From an uncultured bacterium (GTDB lineage Bacteria; Cyanobacteriota; Vampirovibrionia; Gastranaerophilales; Gastranaerophilaceae): a stretch of 64,000 nt of DNA. Made by a program: the position numbers and the translations under genes. This document shows positions 13,150 through 21,223 of this stretch, one piece after another (position 1 is the first letter of the stretch; each line of letters starts with the position of its first letter). The notes below the pieces were generated by a model that was given only the letters and a program-made list of their open reading frames with translations, made no database searches and was not told the origin of the DNA. Location: assembly GCA_949298805.1 (NCBI GenBank), contig CASFXY010000017.1:1-64000 (forward strand), written 5' to 3'.

Positions 13150-13178
13150 TTGACAACTTTTAAAAAAAATGATGTAAT
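13150..13178 (+). promoter_or_regulatory. Arginine operon promoter
   Basis: A perfect -35 TTGACA (13150-13155) is followed after 17 bases by TGTAAT (13173-13178), five of six -10 matches. It is the best sigma-70 promoter in the window and would start transcription near 13185, just ahead of the leader ORF and about 170 bases before argC. Confidence 0.8.
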
Positions 13179-13203
13179 AAACGTAAAGGAAAAAGGAAAC
13201 ATA

Positions 13204-13266
13204 ATGAAAAAACTTTATCTAGCAATTATAATCCGCCGACGCTTAATAAGACAGGAGTCTTATTAA
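13204..13266 (+). CDS. Arginine-rich leader peptide of the arg operon
   Basis: A 20-codon ORF (MKKLYLAIIIRRRLIRQESY) begins 19 bases after the predicted transcription start, with AAGGA at 13193-13197 as ribosome binding site. Codons 11-13 are CGC CGA CGC and codon 16 is AGA, so four arginine codons cluster in its second half. CGC and CGA appear rarer than AGA in the surrounding genes, which would make translation sensitive to charged tRNA-Arg. The ORF ends inside a perfect hairpin, and a terminator follows before argC. This is the layout of amino-acid leader peptides such as trpL or hisL. The regulatory role is inferred. Confidence 0.7.
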   Translation: MKKLYLAIIIRRRLIRQESY

Positions 13267-13268
13267 GC
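13241..13268 (+). promoter_or_regulatory. Leader hairpin overlapping the Arg codons and leader stop
   Basis: GCTTAATAAGAC (13241-13252) and GTCTTATTAAGC (13257-13268) are perfect 12-base complements around the loop AGGA. The stem starts in the third arginine codon of the leader and ends just past its stop. A second perfect pair, AAAACTTTAT (13209-13218) with ATAAAGTTTT (13279-13288), encloses it. A ribosome stalled on the arginine codons would cover the 5' arm. The same 5' arm (GCTTAA) can alternatively pair with TTAAGC at 13300-13305, at the base of the terminator. Confidence 0.7.
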
Positions 13269-13301
13269 TTATTTTGCATAAAGTTTTAAAATAAATTTTT
13301 T

Positions 13302-13342
13302 AAGCCTCCCTTTTATGGTATAGCCTGCAAAGGGAGGCTTTT
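13302..13342 (+). terminator. Attenuator terminator before argC
   Basis: AAGCCTCCCTTT (13302-13313) pairs perfectly with AAAGGGAGGCTT (13329-13340) across a 15-base loop and is followed by TT then G, so the T tract is short. It lies between the leader ORF and argC, only 16 bases before the argC start, where a constitutive terminator would make no sense. Conditional termination is therefore likely. Confidence 0.75.
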
Positions 13343-13358
13343 GTATAGAAAGGCAGAT

Positions 13359-14393
13359 ATGATTAAAGCATCAATAATAGGCGCAACAGGATACTCGGGA
13401 GTGGTACTTGCAGGGATTTTGTCTTCACATAAGGATGTAGAAATTGTTTCCCTTACAAGTCAAAGTTATAAAGGGCAATATTATAGCGATATATATAAAA
13501 ATTTTAAAGGTGTGCTTGACATAAAGCTTGAAGAAGAAAATATTGATGAAATTTCAAAGAAATCCGATGTTATTTTTCTTGCTTTACCACATGGAATTGC
13601 TTCCAAGAAAATTACTCAAGATGTTTTAAAACAAGCAAAAGTTATTGATTTAGGTGCTGATTTCAGACTTAAAAATATAACAACTTATCAAGCATGGTAT
13701 AATACTCAACACTTTGGCGAAAATCTGCTAAATAAAGCTATTTACGGTTTACCGGAGTGGAATAAAGAGCAAATCAAAACTGCATGTCTTGTTGCTAACC
13801 CGGGCTGCTATGCAACTGCTTCAATTTTAACAGTCGCACCTTTATTAAAAGAGGGGGTTATACATTCCGATGATATTATAATTGATGCGAAATCAGGAGT
13901 GTCGGGTGCTGGCAGGGGGCTTAGCATTGATACTCATTTTTGCGAATGCAATGAAACCATCAAAGCATACAAGGTTGCAACCCACAGGCATACACCTGAA
14001 ATAGAACAAGTCTTGAGTGATATTTCAGGCAATAATGTTCTTTTGAATTTTACACCCCACCTTGTGCCTATGAATAGAGGAATTTTAATAAGTGCATATT
14101 TGAATTCCAAAAAAGATATATCGATTGATGAATTAAAACAAGTTTATAAAAAATATTATTTAGATAAACCTTTTGTAAGACTTTTTGATGATGTTGTACA
14201 AACAAGATGGACAAAAGGTACAAATTATTGTGATATAAGCGTGTTTAAAGACGAGCGAACGGGACGAATTATTGCCTTTGGTGCAATAGACAATTTATAT
14301 AAAGGTGCATCAGGGCAAGCGGTGCAAAATATGAACATAATGTTTGGTTTGGACGAAAAGACTTCACTTCAAAATACAGCGGTATTCCCGTAA
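13359..14393 (+). CDS. argC: N-acetyl-gamma-glutamyl-phosphate reductase
   Basis: Third step of arginine synthesis: NADPH-dependent reduction of N-acetylglutamyl phosphate to the semialdehyde, in the cytoplasm. ATG 13359 with AAAGG six bases upstream gives 344 residues beginning MIKASIIGATGYSG; a TTG at 13341 lies inside the terminator tail and is unlikely. The Rossmann motif GATGYSG, the catalytic cysteine in NPGCYAT, and the PHLVPMNRGIL and YKGASGQAVQNMN motifs are all present. Length is normal. First gene of the seven-gene arg operon, controlled by the upstream leader/terminator. Confidence 0.95.
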   Translation: MIKASIIGATGYSGVVLAGILSSHKDVEIVSLTSQSYKGQYYSDIYKNFKGVLDIKLEEENIDEISKKSDVIFLALPHGIASKKITQDVLKQAKVIDLGADFRLKNITTYQAWYNTQHFGENLLNKAIYGLPEWNKEQIKTACLVANPGCYATASILTVAPLLKEGVIHSDDIIIDAKSGVSGAGRGLSIDTHFCECNETIKAYKVATHRHTPEIEQVLSDISGNNVLLNFTPHLVPMNRGILISAYLNSKKDISIDELKQVYKKYYLDKPFVRLFDDVVQTRWTKGTNYCDISVFKDERTGRIIAFGAIDNLYKGASGQAVQNMNIMFGLDEKTSLQNTAVFP

Positions 14394-14406
14394 AAAAGGA
14401 GAAAAA

Positions 14407-15648
14407 ATGTTTAATACAAAAGAAAAGATAAAGAAGATTAACGGCGCTATAATTGCACCCCAAGGGTTTGAGGCTGCAGGTATAAGAACGGGTGTGAAGA
14501 GAAGAAGAAAAGATTTGGCGATAATATATACAAAAAAAAGTGCTGTTTGTGCAGGTGTATATACAACCAATGTCGTAAAAGCAGCGCCCTTGCTCGTTAC
14601 TAAAGATATTGTTGAAAAAGGTACTTCTGTGAATGCTGTAATTATTAACAGTGGTAATGCAAATGCCTGTACCGGTGCAAAAGGGCTTACAAATGCGTGG
14701 GCAATGGTAGAAAAAACGCAAAAAGTTCTTAATTTACCGCAAAGAAGTGTTTTAGTTGCTTCGACCGGTGTTATAGGTGTAGAGCTTCAAATGGATAAAA
14801 TTTTAGACGGTATTGAAGAAATAGTAACTCAAATGGGCAATAATGAACAAGCTGCGCTTAATGCTGCCGAGGGTATCATGACTACAGATACTTTTGTAAA
14901 AGGTGTTGCTTATGAATTTGAAATAAGTGGAAAAATTGTTAAAATTGGTGCAATTGCAAAAGGGTCAGGCATGATTCATCCTAACATGGGAACCATGCTT
15001 GGTTTTATCACAACCGATGCGGTAATTTCAAAAGAAATGCTGCAAAAAGCTCTGTCGGAAAGTACTAAAAATACTTATAACATGATTTCGGTTGACGGTG
15101 ATACTTCTACAAATGATATGGTTCTTGTGCTTGCAAACGGTTGTGCTCAAAATAAACCTATTGAGAGCGAAACACAAGATTATAAAACTTTCGCAACCGC
15201 ACTTGATATGTTAAATAAGCACTTGGCAAAGCAAATAGTTTTGGATGGCGAAGGGGCGACGAAATTTATTGAAATTAATGTTTCCGGTGCAAGTGATGAG
15301 GAGTCGGCCAGAATTCTTGCAAAATCCGTAATGACTTCAAATCTTGTAAAAACCGCTTTTTTCGGCGAAGATGCAAATTGGGGCAGAATTCTTGCCGCAT
15401 TGGGATACAGTGGAATTAAATTTAATCCCGATAATGTTTCAATTGAATTTTGTGCCGGAGATTTATCAATGTACTTGATGAAAGCTGGTGTGCCGCAAGA
15501 ATTTAGCGAAGATAATGCCCATGAGCTTCTAAAAAATAAAGAAATAAGTGTAAATATTTATTTAAGCGAAGGTGAAGCTAAAGCTACGGCGTGGGGTTGT
15601 GATTTAAGTTACGAGTATGTAAGAATTAACGGCGAATATAGGACATAG
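14407..15648 (+). CDS. argJ: Bifunctional glutamate N-acetyltransferase / ornithine acetyltransferase
   Basis: ArgJ recycles the acetyl group from N-acetylornithine to glutamate. ATG 14407 follows a GGAG ribosome binding site and gives 413 residues. The self-cleavage region KGSGMIHPNMGTMLGF is intact, with the Thr that becomes the beta-subunit nucleophile. The C-terminal half has GEDANWGRILAALGYSG. Its presence next to argB, argC and argD with no argE in the cluster indicates the cyclic acetyl pathway. It starts 13 bases after argC. Confidence 0.95.
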   Translation: MFNTKEKIKKINGAIIAPQGFEAAGIRTGVKRRRKDLAIIYTKKSAVCAGVYTTNVVKAAPLLVTKDIVEKGTSVNAVIINSGNANACTGAKGLTNAWAMVEKTQKVLNLPQRSVLVASTGVIGVELQMDKILDGIEEIVTQMGNNEQAALNAAEGIMTTDTFVKGVAYEFEISGKIVKIGAIAKGSGMIHPNMGTMLGFITTDAVISKEMLQKALSESTKNTYNMISVDGDTSTNDMVLVLANGCAQNKPIESETQDYKTFATALDMLNKHLAKQIVLDGEGATKFIEINVSGASDEESARILAKSVMTSNLVKTAFFGEDANWGRILAALGYSGIKFNPDNVSIEFCAGDLSMYLMKAGVPQEFSEDNAHELLKNKEISVNIYLSEGEAKATAWGCDLSYEYVRINGEYRT

Positions 15649-15662
15649 TGTGAGGGATACTA

Positions 15663-16523
15663 ATGAAAGAATACGTTCAAAAAGTAAGAATTTTAACAGA
15701 GTCTTTACCTTATATAAAAGAATTTACCGGTAAAACCGTTGTAATAAAGTTGGGCGGTGAAGCTCTTAAAGATGAAACCGTTTCAAAAACATTAATGGAA
15801 GATGTTGCACTTATGAAATATATCGGAATAAAACCCGTTATAGTTCATGGGGGCGGTGTAGAGATTACTGAAACCTTAAAAGAAATGAATGTTAAAACGG
15901 AATTTGTAGATGGGTTAAGAAAAACGGATAAAAAAACTGCCCAAGTTGTTGAAATGGTTCTTGCGGCAAGTGTAAACAAAAAAATTGTGTACGATATTCA
16001 AACCCATGGGGTTGAAGCTATAGGGATTTGCGGATGTGATACAAATTTGTTCGAAATACAAAAAATTTATCCAAACGGCAAGGATTTGGGTTACATAGGT
16101 GAGGTTACAAAAGTAAACGAGAAAATATTAAATGTGCTTATTGATAATTCTTATATACCAGTGATAGCACCTGTTTCAAAGGATAAAGAAGGAAGTATAT
16201 ATAACATAAATGCAGATTATGCAGCAGTTTCGGTCGCTTGCGCTTTAAAGGCACAAAAACTTGTATTTTTAACGGATATCGAAGGGGTTATGAGGGATAA
16301 ATTTGACCCAGCATCAGTCATCTCTACCCTTAAAATTTCTGAAATTAATAAATATATTGATGAAAAAATCATTGAAGGCGGAATGATTCCAAAAGTACAA
16401 AGTTGTAAATACGCAATTGAAAACGGAGTAGAGAGTGTTCATATCCTTGATGGCAGGTTGGAACATTCTTTGTTGCTTGAAATATTTACTCATCATGGAA
16501 TAGGGACGATGGTGGAAAAATAA
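15663..16523 (+). CDS. argB: Acetylglutamate kinase
   Basis: A 286-residue amino-acid kinase that phosphorylates N-acetylglutamate with ATP. The nucleotide-binding VVIKLGGEAL and the acetylglutamate-binding PVIVHGGGVEI are clear, as are YNINADYAA and EGGMIPKVQSC near the C-terminus. The N-terminal extension of about 20 residues (YVQKVRILTESLPYI) is the type found in hexameric, arginine-inhibited ArgB, so feedback control is likely. The stop overlaps the argD start by one base. Confidence 0.95.
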   Translation: MKEYVQKVRILTESLPYIKEFTGKTVVIKLGGEALKDETVSKTLMEDVALMKYIGIKPVIVHGGGVEITETLKEMNVKTEFVDGLRKTDKKTAQVVEMVLAASVNKKIVYDIQTHGVEAIGICGCDTNLFEIQKIYPNGKDLGYIGEVTKVNEKILNVLIDNSYIPVIAPVSKDKEGSIYNINADYAAVSVACALKAQKLVFLTDIEGVMRDKFDPASVISTLKISEINKYIDEKIIEGGMIPKVQSCKYAIENGVESVHILDGRLEHSLLLEIFTHHGIGTMVEK

Positions 16524-17692
16524 TGAATAATGAATTTATAATGAAAACATATTCAAGATTTGATGTAACATTTGACCATGGAAAAGGTTGTTATTTGTAC
16601 GACACCAATGGCAAAAAATATATTGATTTTGCAGCCGGAATCGCTGTTAATTCTCTGGGTTATGCCAATGAAAAACTCGAAAATGCTATTTTAAGTCAAT
16701 CTAAAAAACTTTTGCATTGTTCAAATTTATATTGGAGTCAACCTCAAATAAACCTTGCAAAAAAACTTTGCCAAAACAGTTCCTTTGATAAGGTGTTTTT
16801 CTGTAACAGCGGCGCTGAAGCAAACGAAGCTGCATTAAAACTTGCAAAAATATATGCTAAAAAAAATAAAAATGAAAATTGTACAAAATTTATAGCTTTT
16901 AGAAACTCTTTTCATGGTAGAACAACAGGTTCTTTGAGCCTCACAGGACAGGACAAATATCAAAAGAACTTTACTCCGTTAATGCCTGATGTTAAATTTG
17001 CCCTATTTAATGATATTGAATCCGTAAAAAAATTGCTTGGTGCAGATATTTGTGCAATTTTTCTGGAACCTATTCAGGGCGAGGGAGGTATAGTTCCTGC
17101 AAAACAAGAGTTCCTGGCTGAAATCAGAGAAATTTGTACAAAAAACGATATTGTACTTGTTTTTGATGAAGTTCAATGCGGAATTGGTAGGTGTGGCAAG
17201 CTTTTTGCGCATCAGGTTTATGGTATAAATCCTGATATTGTGACTTTGGCAAAAGCAATAGCTGGTGGCTTACCCATGGGTGCAATGCTTGCAACCGATA
17301 AAATAGCATCATCATTTAGTGTCGGTGATCACGCAAGTACTTTTGGCGGCAATCTTCTTGCGTGCGCTTGTGCAAATGCGGTAATCGAGGAAATTGCGAA
17401 TGATTCTTTTCTTGAAAATGTAAGTCAAATGAGCAGTTATTTTATTTCGAAGCTTAATACATTTAAGGAGAAGTACTCTTTTATCAAGGATGTAAGAGGC
17501 ATAGGGCTAATGCTTGGAATTGAACTTGATATTCCTCCAAAAGATGTTGTAAATGCGGCATTTAAGGAGGGGTTATTAATATTAAGTGCAGGGGCTAATG
17601 TTATCCGATTTGTGCCACCATTAATTATTGATAAAAAGGTGGCTGACGAGGGTTTTATTATTTTAAATAAGGTTTTTGAAAGTATAAAATAA
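16523..17692 (+). CDS. argD: Acetylornithine aminotransferase
   Basis: A 389-residue class III PLP aminotransferase that converts N-acetylglutamate semialdehyde to N-acetylornithine with glutamate. It shows CNSGAEANEAALKLA, FHGRTTGSLS, the EPIQGEGG region, DEVQCGIGRCGK with the PLP-contacting Asp, and the Schiff-base lysine in LAKAIAGGLPMGAM. Length is normal. Its ATG overlaps the argB TAA (TAATG), giving translational coupling. Confidence 0.94.
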   Translation: MNNEFIMKTYSRFDVTFDHGKGCYLYDTNGKKYIDFAAGIAVNSLGYANEKLENAILSQSKKLLHCSNLYWSQPQINLAKKLCQNSSFDKVFFCNSGAEANEAALKLAKIYAKKNKNENCTKFIAFRNSFHGRTTGSLSLTGQDKYQKNFTPLMPDVKFALFNDIESVKKLLGADICAIFLEPIQGEGGIVPAKQEFLAEIREICTKNDIVLVFDEVQCGIGRCGKLFAHQVYGINPDIVTLAKAIAGGLPMGAMLATDKIASSFSVGDHASTFGGNLLACACANAVIEEIANDSFLENVSQMSSYFISKLNTFKEKYSFIKDVRGIGLMLGIELDIPPKDVVNAAFKEGLLILSAGANVIRFVPPLIIDKKVADEGFIILNKVFESIK

Positions 17693-17704
17693 AAGGAGAA
17701 AAAT

Positions 17705-18916
17705 ATGAAGGAAAAAGTTGTATTGGCATATTCGGGCGGTTTGGATACCACTGTTTTAATTCCTTGGTTAAAAGAAACTTATGATTATGATATTATTGCT
17801 GTCTGTATTGATGTCGGTCAGGGCAAAGAAACTGACGGACTTGAGCAAAAGGCTATAAAAACCGGTGCTCAGAAGTTCTATTTGTTGGATGTAACGGAAG
17901 AATTTCTAAAAGATTACGCTTGGCCTACCCTTAAGGCAGGCGCTGTTTATGAAAGTAAATATCTTTTAGGTACATCAATAGCAAGACCAATAATTGGCAA
18001 ATGTCTTGTAGATATAGCAAAAAAAGAAGGCGCGGTTGCCATCTGTCATGGTGCTACAGGTAAGGGCAATGACCAAGTAAGATTTGAACTTGCAATAAAA
18101 GCTCTTGCGCCCGAACTTAAAATCATAGCACCTTGGAGAATTTGGGATATAAAATCAAGAGAAGATGAAATTGAATATCTTGAAAAAAGAGGTATTGAAG
18201 TGCCGATGAAAAAGGATGATTCATACTCCAGAGATAAAAACCTGTGGCATTTGAGTCATGAAGGCTTGGAGCTTGAGGACCCTGCGCTTGAGCCCAATTT
18301 TGATAAGCTTTTACAAATGTCTGTTACACCCGAAAAAGCACCTGATAAGCCTGCTTATGTTGAAATTGAATTTGAAAAAGGTATTCCTGTTGCTATTAAT
18401 GGTACAAAGACAAGTGCAAAAGAACTGCTTGAAACCGCAAATAAATTGGCAGGCGAAAATGGTATAGGTATAGCGGATATTGTTGAAAACAGGCTTGTAG
18501 GAATGAAATCAAGAGGTGTATATGAAACTCCGGGGGGAACTTTATTGTATCAGGCACATGAATATCTTGAGCATCTTTGCCTTGATAGGGATACTTATCA
18601 ATATAAATTAAATATTGCAAATGAATTTGCAAAATTAGTGTATAACGGATTGTGGTTTAGTCCTCTAAGAGCTGCTTTGAGTGCTTTTGTGGATGAAACA
18701 CAAAAAACAGTTACCGGTAAAGTTAAATTAAAATTATACAAAGGAAATATTATATATGCAGGCGCAATTTCGCCTTATTCGTTGTACAGTGAGAGTTTAG
18801 CAAGTTTCACTACCGGAGATTTGTATAATCATAAAGATGCAGAAGGATTTATAAATTTATTCGGTCTGCCCTTAAAAGTAAAAGCTATGTTAATTGGAGA
18901 TAAAGTTAATGGCTAA
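17705..18916 (+). CDS. argG: Argininosuccinate synthase
   Basis: A 403-residue enzyme joining citrulline and aspartate with ATP. The P-loop-like [11 protein letters not shown] is at the N-terminus, followed by [15 protein letters not shown] and [13 protein letters not shown]. It starts 12 bases after argD with an AAGGAG site. Its last eight bases overlap the argH start. Confidence 0.95.
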
Positions 18917-20297
18917 TGATAAACTTTGGGGCGGAAGGTTTTGCGCCAAAACAGATGAAATGACCGACGATTTTAATTCATCGATAAGATTTGACAAAAG
19001 ACTCTATCTGGAAGATATCGAGGGTTCGCTTGCTCATACAAGAATGCTTGAAAAACAGGGGATAATTTCCCCTGTTGAGTCAAAGTGTATTCAAGATGGT
19101 CTTAAGAAAATTTTGACGGATATTGAAACAGGAAATGTTACCTTTGATGTTTCTTGTGAAGATATTCACATGAATATTGAAAAACTATTGACTGATTTAA
19201 TCGGAGAAGCAGGAAAAAAATTGCATAGCGCAAGAAGCAGAAATGATCAGGTTGCACTTGATACAAAAATGTATGTTAAAAAAGAACTTCTAAATATTAA
19301 AAAATTACTTTTAGTGCTTGAGGAAGTTATTTTGAACAAAGCAAAAGAGAATTTGGACACTGTTATGTCAGGGTTTACGCATTTGCAAAAAGCTCAGCCA
19401 ATTACTTTTGCACATCATATTTGTGCTTATTTTGAGATGTTCAAACGAGATATCTCTCGTTTAGAAGATGCATACGACAGGGCGGATACTTGCCCATTGG
19501 GCGCTTGTGCTCTTGCGGGTACAACATATAATATTGACAGATATTACACATCGGAACTTTTGGGATTTAAAATGCCAACCTTAAACACAATTGATGCTGT
19601 TTCCGATAGAGATTTTGTAATAGAAACAATAAGTTGTATTTCTTTTATAATGATGCATTTGAGCAGATTTTGCGAAGAGATAATTATATGGTGTTCTCAA
19701 GAATATAATTATATAAAACTTGACGACAGTTATTCGACCGGTTCAAGCATTATGCCTCAGAAAAAAAACCCTGATATTGCCGAACTTGTTCGCGGAAAGT
19801 GTGGCAGAGTTTATGGCAATTTGATGGGTATTCTAACTGTTATGAAAGGCTTGCCTTTGGCATACAATAAAGATATGCAGGAAGATAAAGAGCTTTTGTT
19901 CGATTCTATTGATACGGTTAAAATGTGCCTTGAGATTTTTACAAAAATGTTTCAGACTTCCTCGGTGAATAAATCTGTTATGCTCAAATCAACAAAAAAC
20001 GGCTTTTTAAATGCAACCGATGTTGCCGACTATCTTGTTAAAAAAGGTTTGCCGTTTAGGGATACTCATAAAATAGCAGGCGAACTTGTATTTTATTGCA
20101 TACAAAACTCAAAAAATCTTGAGGATTTAGAACTTGATGAATTCAAGAAGTATTGCGAACTGTTTGAAAATGACATCTATGATGCAATTTCGCTTGAGAA
20201 TTGTGTGCAAAACAGAAAAACGACGGGTGCGCCTTCAAAAGAAGCCATGAAACCGATTATTGAAATTTACGAAAAATATATAAAGGAGAAAAAATGA
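18909..20297 (+). CDS. argH: Argininosuccinate lyase
   Basis: The last step: argininosuccinate to arginine and fumarate. ATG 18909 gives 462 residues beginning [11 protein letters not shown], the family's usual N-terminus; the in-frame upstream start lies inside arg[29 protein letters not shown] and the fumarase/lyase signature [12 protein letters not shown] with its catalytic Ser are present. It overlaps argG by eight bases and argF by four. Confidence 0.95.
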
Positions 20298-21223
20298 ACT
20301 TAAAGGGTAGAGATTTTTTGACTTTAATGGATTTTACGAAAGATGAAATTTTATATCTTTTGGATTTTGCGCAAGAAATTAAAAAAGATGTTAAAAGCGG
20401 ACATTTTTTGCCAATTTTGAAAAATAAAAATTTAGCTCTAATATTTTCAAAACCTTCATTAAGAACGCGTGTAAGTTTTGAAATAGGAATGAGGCAGCTT
20501 GGCGGAAACTCTCTGACATTAAAACAGGATGAAATTAATCTTGGTATCAGAGAATCAATAGCCGATACCGCAAGAGTACTGTCCGGATATGCTGATTGCG
20601 TAATGATAAGAACTTTTGCGCATAAAGATGTTGAAGAATTTGTCCAATATGCAACAATTCCGACAATCAACGGTCTTACTGACGATTGTCACCCATGTCA
20701 GATTATGGCAGATTTACTCACAATAAAAGAACATTTTTCTAAGCTTGAAGGATTAAAACTTACCTATGTTGGCGATGGGAACAATGTTGCAAATAGTCTT
20801 TTGGTCGGGTGTGCACTTGTAGGTATCAATGTTGCAATTTCATCTCCAAAGGGCTATGAACCAACGGGAAGGTTTTTAAATTTTGCAAAAGAAATTGCCA
20901 AAACAAGCGGTATCAAGGTAGAAATACTAAACGAGCCGGAACTTGCCGTTGATGGCGCAAATATAATTTATACCGATGTTTGGGCAAGCATGGGACAAGA
21001 GAGTGAAGCTCAAGCAAGAAAAGAAATATTTAAGCCTTATCAAATTAATGCTCAACTTTGTTCTTTTGCCTCAAAAGATGTTATTGTTATGCACTGTCTT
21101 CCTGCTCACAGAGAAGAAGAAATAACTCATGATGTTCTTGAAAAATATGCAGATGTTATTTTTAGACAGGCAGAAAACAGAATGCATGCTCAAAAAGCAA
21201 TTATGGCAAGTATTATAGGTTAA
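20294..21223 (+). CDS. argF: Ornithine carbamoyltransferase
   Basis: A 309-residue enzyme making citrulline from ornithine and carbamoyl phosphate. The carbamoyl-phosphate loop SLRTRVSFE, the HPCQIMADLLT motif and the ornithine-site HCLPAHR are intact. Its ATGA overlaps the argH stop, and AAGGAG sits just upstream. Last gene of the operon. It converges on ridA with a four-base overlap and no visible intervening terminator. carAB is not in the window. Confidence 0.94.
   Translation: MNLKGRDFLTLMDFTKDEILYLLDFAQEIKKDVKSGHFLPILKNKNLALIFSKPSLRTRVSFEIGMRQLGGNSLTLKQDEINLGIRESIADTARVLSGYADCVMIRTFAHKDVEEFVQYATIPTINGLTDDCHPCQIMADLLTIKEHFSKLEGLKLTYVGDGNNVANSLLVGCALVGINVAISSPKGYEPTGRFLNFAKEIAKTSGIKVEILNEPELAVDGANIIYTDVWASMGQESEAQARKEIFKPYQINAQLCSFASKDVIVMHCLPAHREEEITHDVLEKYADVIFRQAENRMHAQKAIMASIIG

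Follow-up and report, generated by a model that had tools for sequence, protein, structure and literature searches.

The DNA analysed here is a 64-kb window (by which we mean the whole stretch examined, on contig C17) of a 1.68-Mb genome that is ~95% complete. The window comes from a Candidatus Gastranaerophilales genome and carries an arginine biosynthesis operon. In the public collection, the named genomes nearest to it are Candidatus Gastranaerophilales MAGs, whose ArgC proteins are at most 77% identical to the one encoded here by the first gene of the operon, argC. Ahead of argC lies a leader with its own promoter, a short Arg-rich ORF and several potential RNA helices (Table 1). A first-pass annotation of this DNA had described the promoter, the ribosome binding site, a 20-codon ORF containing CGC CGA CGC and a later AGA, a 12-bp hairpin, a 10-bp pairing enclosing it and a 12-bp terminator stem 18 bases before argC. 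All of these elements are present where it had placed them, and together they exceed chance expectation. Hairpin 1:2 begins within the third Arg codon of the run, and its 3' arm contains the leader stop codon. When the RNA spanning positions 13185-13358 was folded and compared with shuffled versions of itself, it reached a z score of -4.2, and none of 200 shuffles was as good.

Table 1. Leader elements and operon, with positions in the 64-kb window.
Feature	Position	Strand	Details and support
Predicted sigma-70-type promoter TTGACA-N17-TGTAAT	13150..13178	+	Read from sequence; hexamers at 13150-13155 and 13173-13178, spacer 17; both hexamers kept in 11 congeners
Ribosome binding site AGGAAA of leader ORF	13194..13199	+	Sequence; purine-rich site ahead of start in most relatives
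Leader peptide ORF MKKLYLAIIIRRRLIRQESY	13204..13266	+	ATG at 13204, 20 codons plus stop; open in 11/11 congeners; Arg-rich leader ORFs in 13 further genomes of the order
Stem 0	13209..13287 (13209-13218 / 13278-13287)	+	10 bp; ORF start with linker, hairpin 1:2 enclosed
Control codons CGC CGA CGC (Arg 11-13)	13234..13242	+	CGC 13234, CGA 13237, CGC 13240 (later AGA at 13249); kept as Arg with synonymous change
Hairpin 1:2	13241..13268 (13241-13252 / 13257-13268)	+	12 bp; all pairs kept in 11 congeners
Region 2, antiterminator 5' strand	13254..13276	+	Pairs with 13287-13309 under a ribosome placed on the Arg codons
Region 3, antiterminator 3' strand	13287..13309	+	Overlaps terminator 5' arm
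Intrinsic terminator	13302..13343 (stem 13302-13313 / 13329-13340, T-rich tail)	+	Fold; conserved in genus; stem 12 bp, 18 nt between stem and argC ATG
Regulated operon argC-argJ-argB-argD-argG-argH-argF	13359..21223	+	ORFs and Pfam matches

Promoter, ORF, Arg-Arg-Arg run, hairpin, antiterminator and terminator are all kept in the 11 argC-bearing congeners examined (11/11), and the N-terminal residues of the leader peptide vary among them while the Arg run is constant. The first-pass annotation had expected an alignment of related upstream regions to reveal conserved Arg codons and covarying stems. The first expectation was borne out. As for the second, the terminator shows one compensatory change, and covariation was sought within the genus in the antiterminator helices and not found, because there is almost no sequence variation among congeners. 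Leaders that had kept the stems and lost the Arg codons were looked for among relatives, and none was found.

Beyond the genus, 13 further genomes of the order carry leaders of dissimilar sequence and identical layout. These leaders, located by inspecting the sequence ahead of the first operon gene, come from other genera (g9, two genomes; g27, five; g19 and g22, one each) and from three other families (f2, two genomes; f4 and f7, one each). Their peptides include ELRRRNLF (f7), QLRRSRSNQ (g9), NRTRRC (f2), NNRRNRC (f4), and ELRRQGLR (g27), the weakest case being G040 (g27), with two Arg codons that lie near each other but are not adjacent. A hairpin is predicted just 3' of the Arg codons and a terminator of different sequence occupies the same position. 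From one family to another, four in all, the sequence around the Arg codons changes and the codons themselves persist. The operon itself is rotated between genera, reading argCJBD-GHF here and argFGH-CJBD in g9, g27, and f7. In the latter three lineages the leader precedes argF instead of argC; as it always stands ahead of the first arg operon gene, the element belongs to the operon head and not to one gene.

An RNA model built on the genus was also used to search the order, and it recovered one further clear Arg leader (G059). Among the other matches that were read, two were rejected as Arg leaders: the one in G238 lies in other sequence, and the one in G395 is a His-rich case. In the latter (G395:C73, L141:848-998), a terminator follows a leader-like ORF rich in His (MNNLIINKIHHLHHLHNIPKGLLS), and the gene downstream encodes a 413-aa protein that has no Pfam match; the regions ahead of hisG in 15 relatives yielded no ORF of this kind.

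The leader ORF differs in composition from the genes around it. In 14 neighbouring genes, 2.5% of the codons specify Arg, and at this frequency the chance of three consecutive Arg codons anywhere in a 20-codon ORF is ~3e-4. AGA or AGG make up 83% of the Arg codons in the neighbouring genes; the leader run is nonetheless CGC CGA CGC, CGC and CGA each representing ~4% of local Arg codons. Four tRNA-Arg genes were found in the genome, one each with anticodons ACG, CCG, UCU, and CCU. Given this gene set and inosine decoding, the CGC and CGA codons of the leader are read by the ACG tRNA. The rarity of these codons would also suit a leader that senses general translation speed, slowed by rare CGN codons, but the control codons are always Arg codons in the lineages examined (CGA/CGC, CGT, and even AGG in f2), the operon makes arginine, and neither argS nor carA of the same genome is preceded by such a leader. 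We consider this explanation very improbable.

Regarding the antiterminator, the first-pass annotation had suggested that GCTTAA (13241-13246) pairs with TTAAGC (13300-13305). This pairing was discarded, as it joins region 1 to region 3, and the pairing of region 2 with region 3 (13254-13276 with 13287-13309) is longer and conserved. In the genus alignment, 94% of the region 2 x region 3 pairs hold, versus 35-61% when the partner is slid by one to three bases. The AUAAAUUU stretch ahead of the terminator is invariant in the genus, although it is unpaired in the terminated fold. The CUCC of the terminator arm has its pairing partner in a GGAG located in and beside the loop of the hairpin. With region boundaries set by the analyst after inspection, the antiterminator pairing energy of 11 distinct leaders yields a combined z score of -11.2 against dinucleotide shuffles of the upstream region (tested singly, some leaders, namely f2, f7, and L008, are not significant), and cognate region 2 x region 3 combinations outperform those made by exchanging partners between lineages, with 6 of 2000 permutations as good.

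Whether the two folds switch with ribosome position depends on how the transcript is modelled. When full transcripts were folded at equilibrium with ribosome masks, no switch was seen, and the terminator was always more stable; thus, the decision must be kinetic. Kinetic control is accepted for known attenuators. Transcripts cut just beyond the terminator 5' arm were folded with ribosome masks placed either on the Arg codons or on the stop codon. With a ribosome stalled on the Arg codons, the terminator arm pairs upstream in 14 of 14 leaders, with a mean probability of 0.62-0.82. With the ribosome at the stop codon, this upstream pairing is lower or abolished (14 leaders), the freed arm retaining some weak upstream pairing in several of them. 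The masked folding suggested by the first-pass annotation thus reveals a switch in transcripts cut at the decision point and none in full transcripts at equilibrium. According to these folding models and shuffles, antiterminator and terminator exclude each other, and a ribosome positioned at the control codons frees the former.

A further helix, stem 0, corresponds to the enclosing 10-bp pairing. It has a p value of 0.008 in the sequence of this genome and a combined z score of -4.7 over 12 leaders (several single lineages are not significant), and none of 2000 permutations was as good as the cognate pairs when these were compared with swaps between lineages. Pairing between the start of the leader ORF and the linker is present in many leaders. 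In the absence of translation, stem 0 would hold the transcript in its terminating form; a block of further initiation on the leader by the same stem is a guess.

Altogether, we consider it very probable that the leader is a trp-type attenuator, in which the position of a ribosome decides on transcription, and that it senses arginine via charged tRNA-Arg. That the operon senses charged tRNA-Arg had been proposed in the first-pass annotation, and the proposal is supported by the conservation of the Arg codons, the antiterminator statistics, the simulated switch, and the undetected ArgR (see below); leader translation, ribosome stalling, and the direction of the response are what we infer. When arginyl-tRNA is ample, the ribosome would pass the Arg codons and reach the stop codon within region 2; with region 2 covered, the terminator (13302-13340) would form and transcription would end ahead of argC. 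When arginyl-tRNA is scarce, the ribosome would stall on CGC CGA CGC, covering region 1, so that the free region 2 could pair with region 3 and take the terminator 5' arm, and polymerase would enter argCJBDGHF. On transcripts that are not translated, stem 0 and hairpin 1:2 would form, making the terminator the default. A short, Arg-rich leader peptide is also what would be expected of nascent-peptide arrest, in which the Arg-Arg-Arg peptide would stall the ribosome when free arginine is abundant, as the fungal arginine attenuator peptide does; some known arrest peptides are leader peptides containing Arg. However, only the Arg residues next to the stem are conserved in the peptide, and with this RNA layout a stall at high arginine would switch a biosynthetic operon on, which is the wrong sign. 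Such arrest is thus highly unlikely here.

Arginine operons of other bacteria are normally governed by ArgR/AhrC, and control of this operon by a repressor at its promoter, with terminator and ORF playing minor roles, would be conceivable if a divergent repressor escaped detection. Yet no ArgR exceeded the family cut-off in any of 117 genomes of the class, this genome included, whereas 8 of 14 control genomes exceeded it in the same search. Moreover, promoter control would leave the conserved Arg codons and the alternative helices unexplained, and we give it only a very small chance. Nor does control by a T-box or another riboswitch acting directly on tRNA-Arg or arginine fare well: arginine T-boxes are known in Firmicutes (PMC1262725), but no Rfam family, T-box and leader families included, matched at gathering score, a permissive scan gave only noise, and the ORF with its Arg codons would be left unexplained. 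We regard such a riboswitch as extremely improbable. Of the readings compared, leader-peptide attenuation has the best support.

A convincing argC match was found in only ~38 of 383 sampled Gastranaerophilales genomes; this route to arginine is probably closed to most of the order. A scan of 69 other argC loci of the genome collection for an Arg-rich ORF with a terminator returned one chance-like match, plus the duplicate record of a congener. In the other families of the class, no Arg leader was seen ahead of argC. Separate argG or argF genes yielded none that was convincing. Ten genomes, nine from family f3 (G072, G078, G082, G085, G087, G088, G090, G091, and G092) and G073, have scattered arg genes, no Arg leader, and no detectable ArgR; in family f3 and G073 arginine is made with no such leader, which speaks against the attenuator reading. 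In one of them (G090:C81 and G090:C122; L250, L260, L262, L263), the matches to argG and to argF are each broken into two or three separate pieces, suggestive of gene decay or of errors in the assembly.

As in the attenuators of the trp/his/leu/thr type known from Proteobacteria and from some Actinobacteria and Firmicutes, the control codons lie at hairpin 1, the stop codon lies in or near region 2, pairings 1:2, 2:3, and 3:4 compete, and an intrinsic terminator stands ahead of a biosynthetic operon. Tandem codons for the operon's own product occur in a short ORF (Arg-Arg-Arg in 11 congeners, Arg-rich in 13 genomes), and the terminator is located between this ORF and the first structural gene. 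What differs is the use of Arg codons, the Gastranaerophilales lineage, and the stem 0 helix.

Among leaders with Arg codons, the nearest is that of Salmonella orf34-speF, a short leader ORF with consecutive Arg codons on which ribosome pausing responds to arginine; it controls an ornithine decarboxylase via Rho, translation, and RNase G, with no intrinsic terminator (PMC6386406), whereas the present leader has an intrinsic terminator and precedes a biosynthetic operon. We found no HIRRT-type peptide core upstream of ornithine decarboxylase among the present leaders: between lineages, their peptides have nothing but Arg residues in common, and the gene that follows is argC or argF. The Firmicutes T-box (ARG) would have in common with the present leader a control at the RNA level by tRNA-Arg charging, but it works without a leader ORF, by direct binding of uncharged tRNA. 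RNA-level control by arginine in bacteria has been credited to T-boxes (PMC1262725). The ArgR/AhrC regulon involves the same genes and the same signal, but through a protein repressor acting at the promoter. A leader peptide likewise precedes carA of P. aeruginosa, an arginine (and pyrimidine) synthesis gene for which attenuation has been suggested; the attenuation there is ascribed to pyrimidines, with arginine acting at transcription initiation (cited in PMC4997734).

The mechanism class is old, and it is the Arg specificity and the lineage that appear to be new. As of 2010, Proteobacteria and Actinobacteria were the groups with known leader-peptide systems, and a His leader extended the list to Firmicutes (PMC2965389). 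Our literature search retrieved no arg operon controlled by a leader-peptide attenuator with Arg codons, and none for this lineage; as most of the subscription literature lay outside its reach, the novelty of the Arg specificity is provisional.

In the literature searched, arginine represents a gap among the leader-peptide attenuators of biosynthetic operons, and the Arg-specific series described here spans four families of an order made up largely of uncultured cyanobacterial relatives from the gut, whose class has yielded no ArgR. A broader scenario, which we put forward tentatively and to which we give somewhat less than an even chance, is that in those Gastranaerophilales that keep arginine synthesis, Arg leader attenuators take the place of ArgR in the main control of the arg operon, follow the operon head through changes in gene order, and rewrite their sequence while keeping their logic. 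They may be tuned to tRNA-Arg(ACG) via CGN codons in an AGA-using genome, and the conserved stem 0 may shut off further initiation, so that the pioneer ribosome alone would decide. As helices turn over between lineages while Arg codons are held, these leaders constitute a natural data set on attenuator evolution. Finally, CGN control codons in an AGA-rich genome offer a direct test of whether leaders use the isoacceptor that is most sensitive to starvation.
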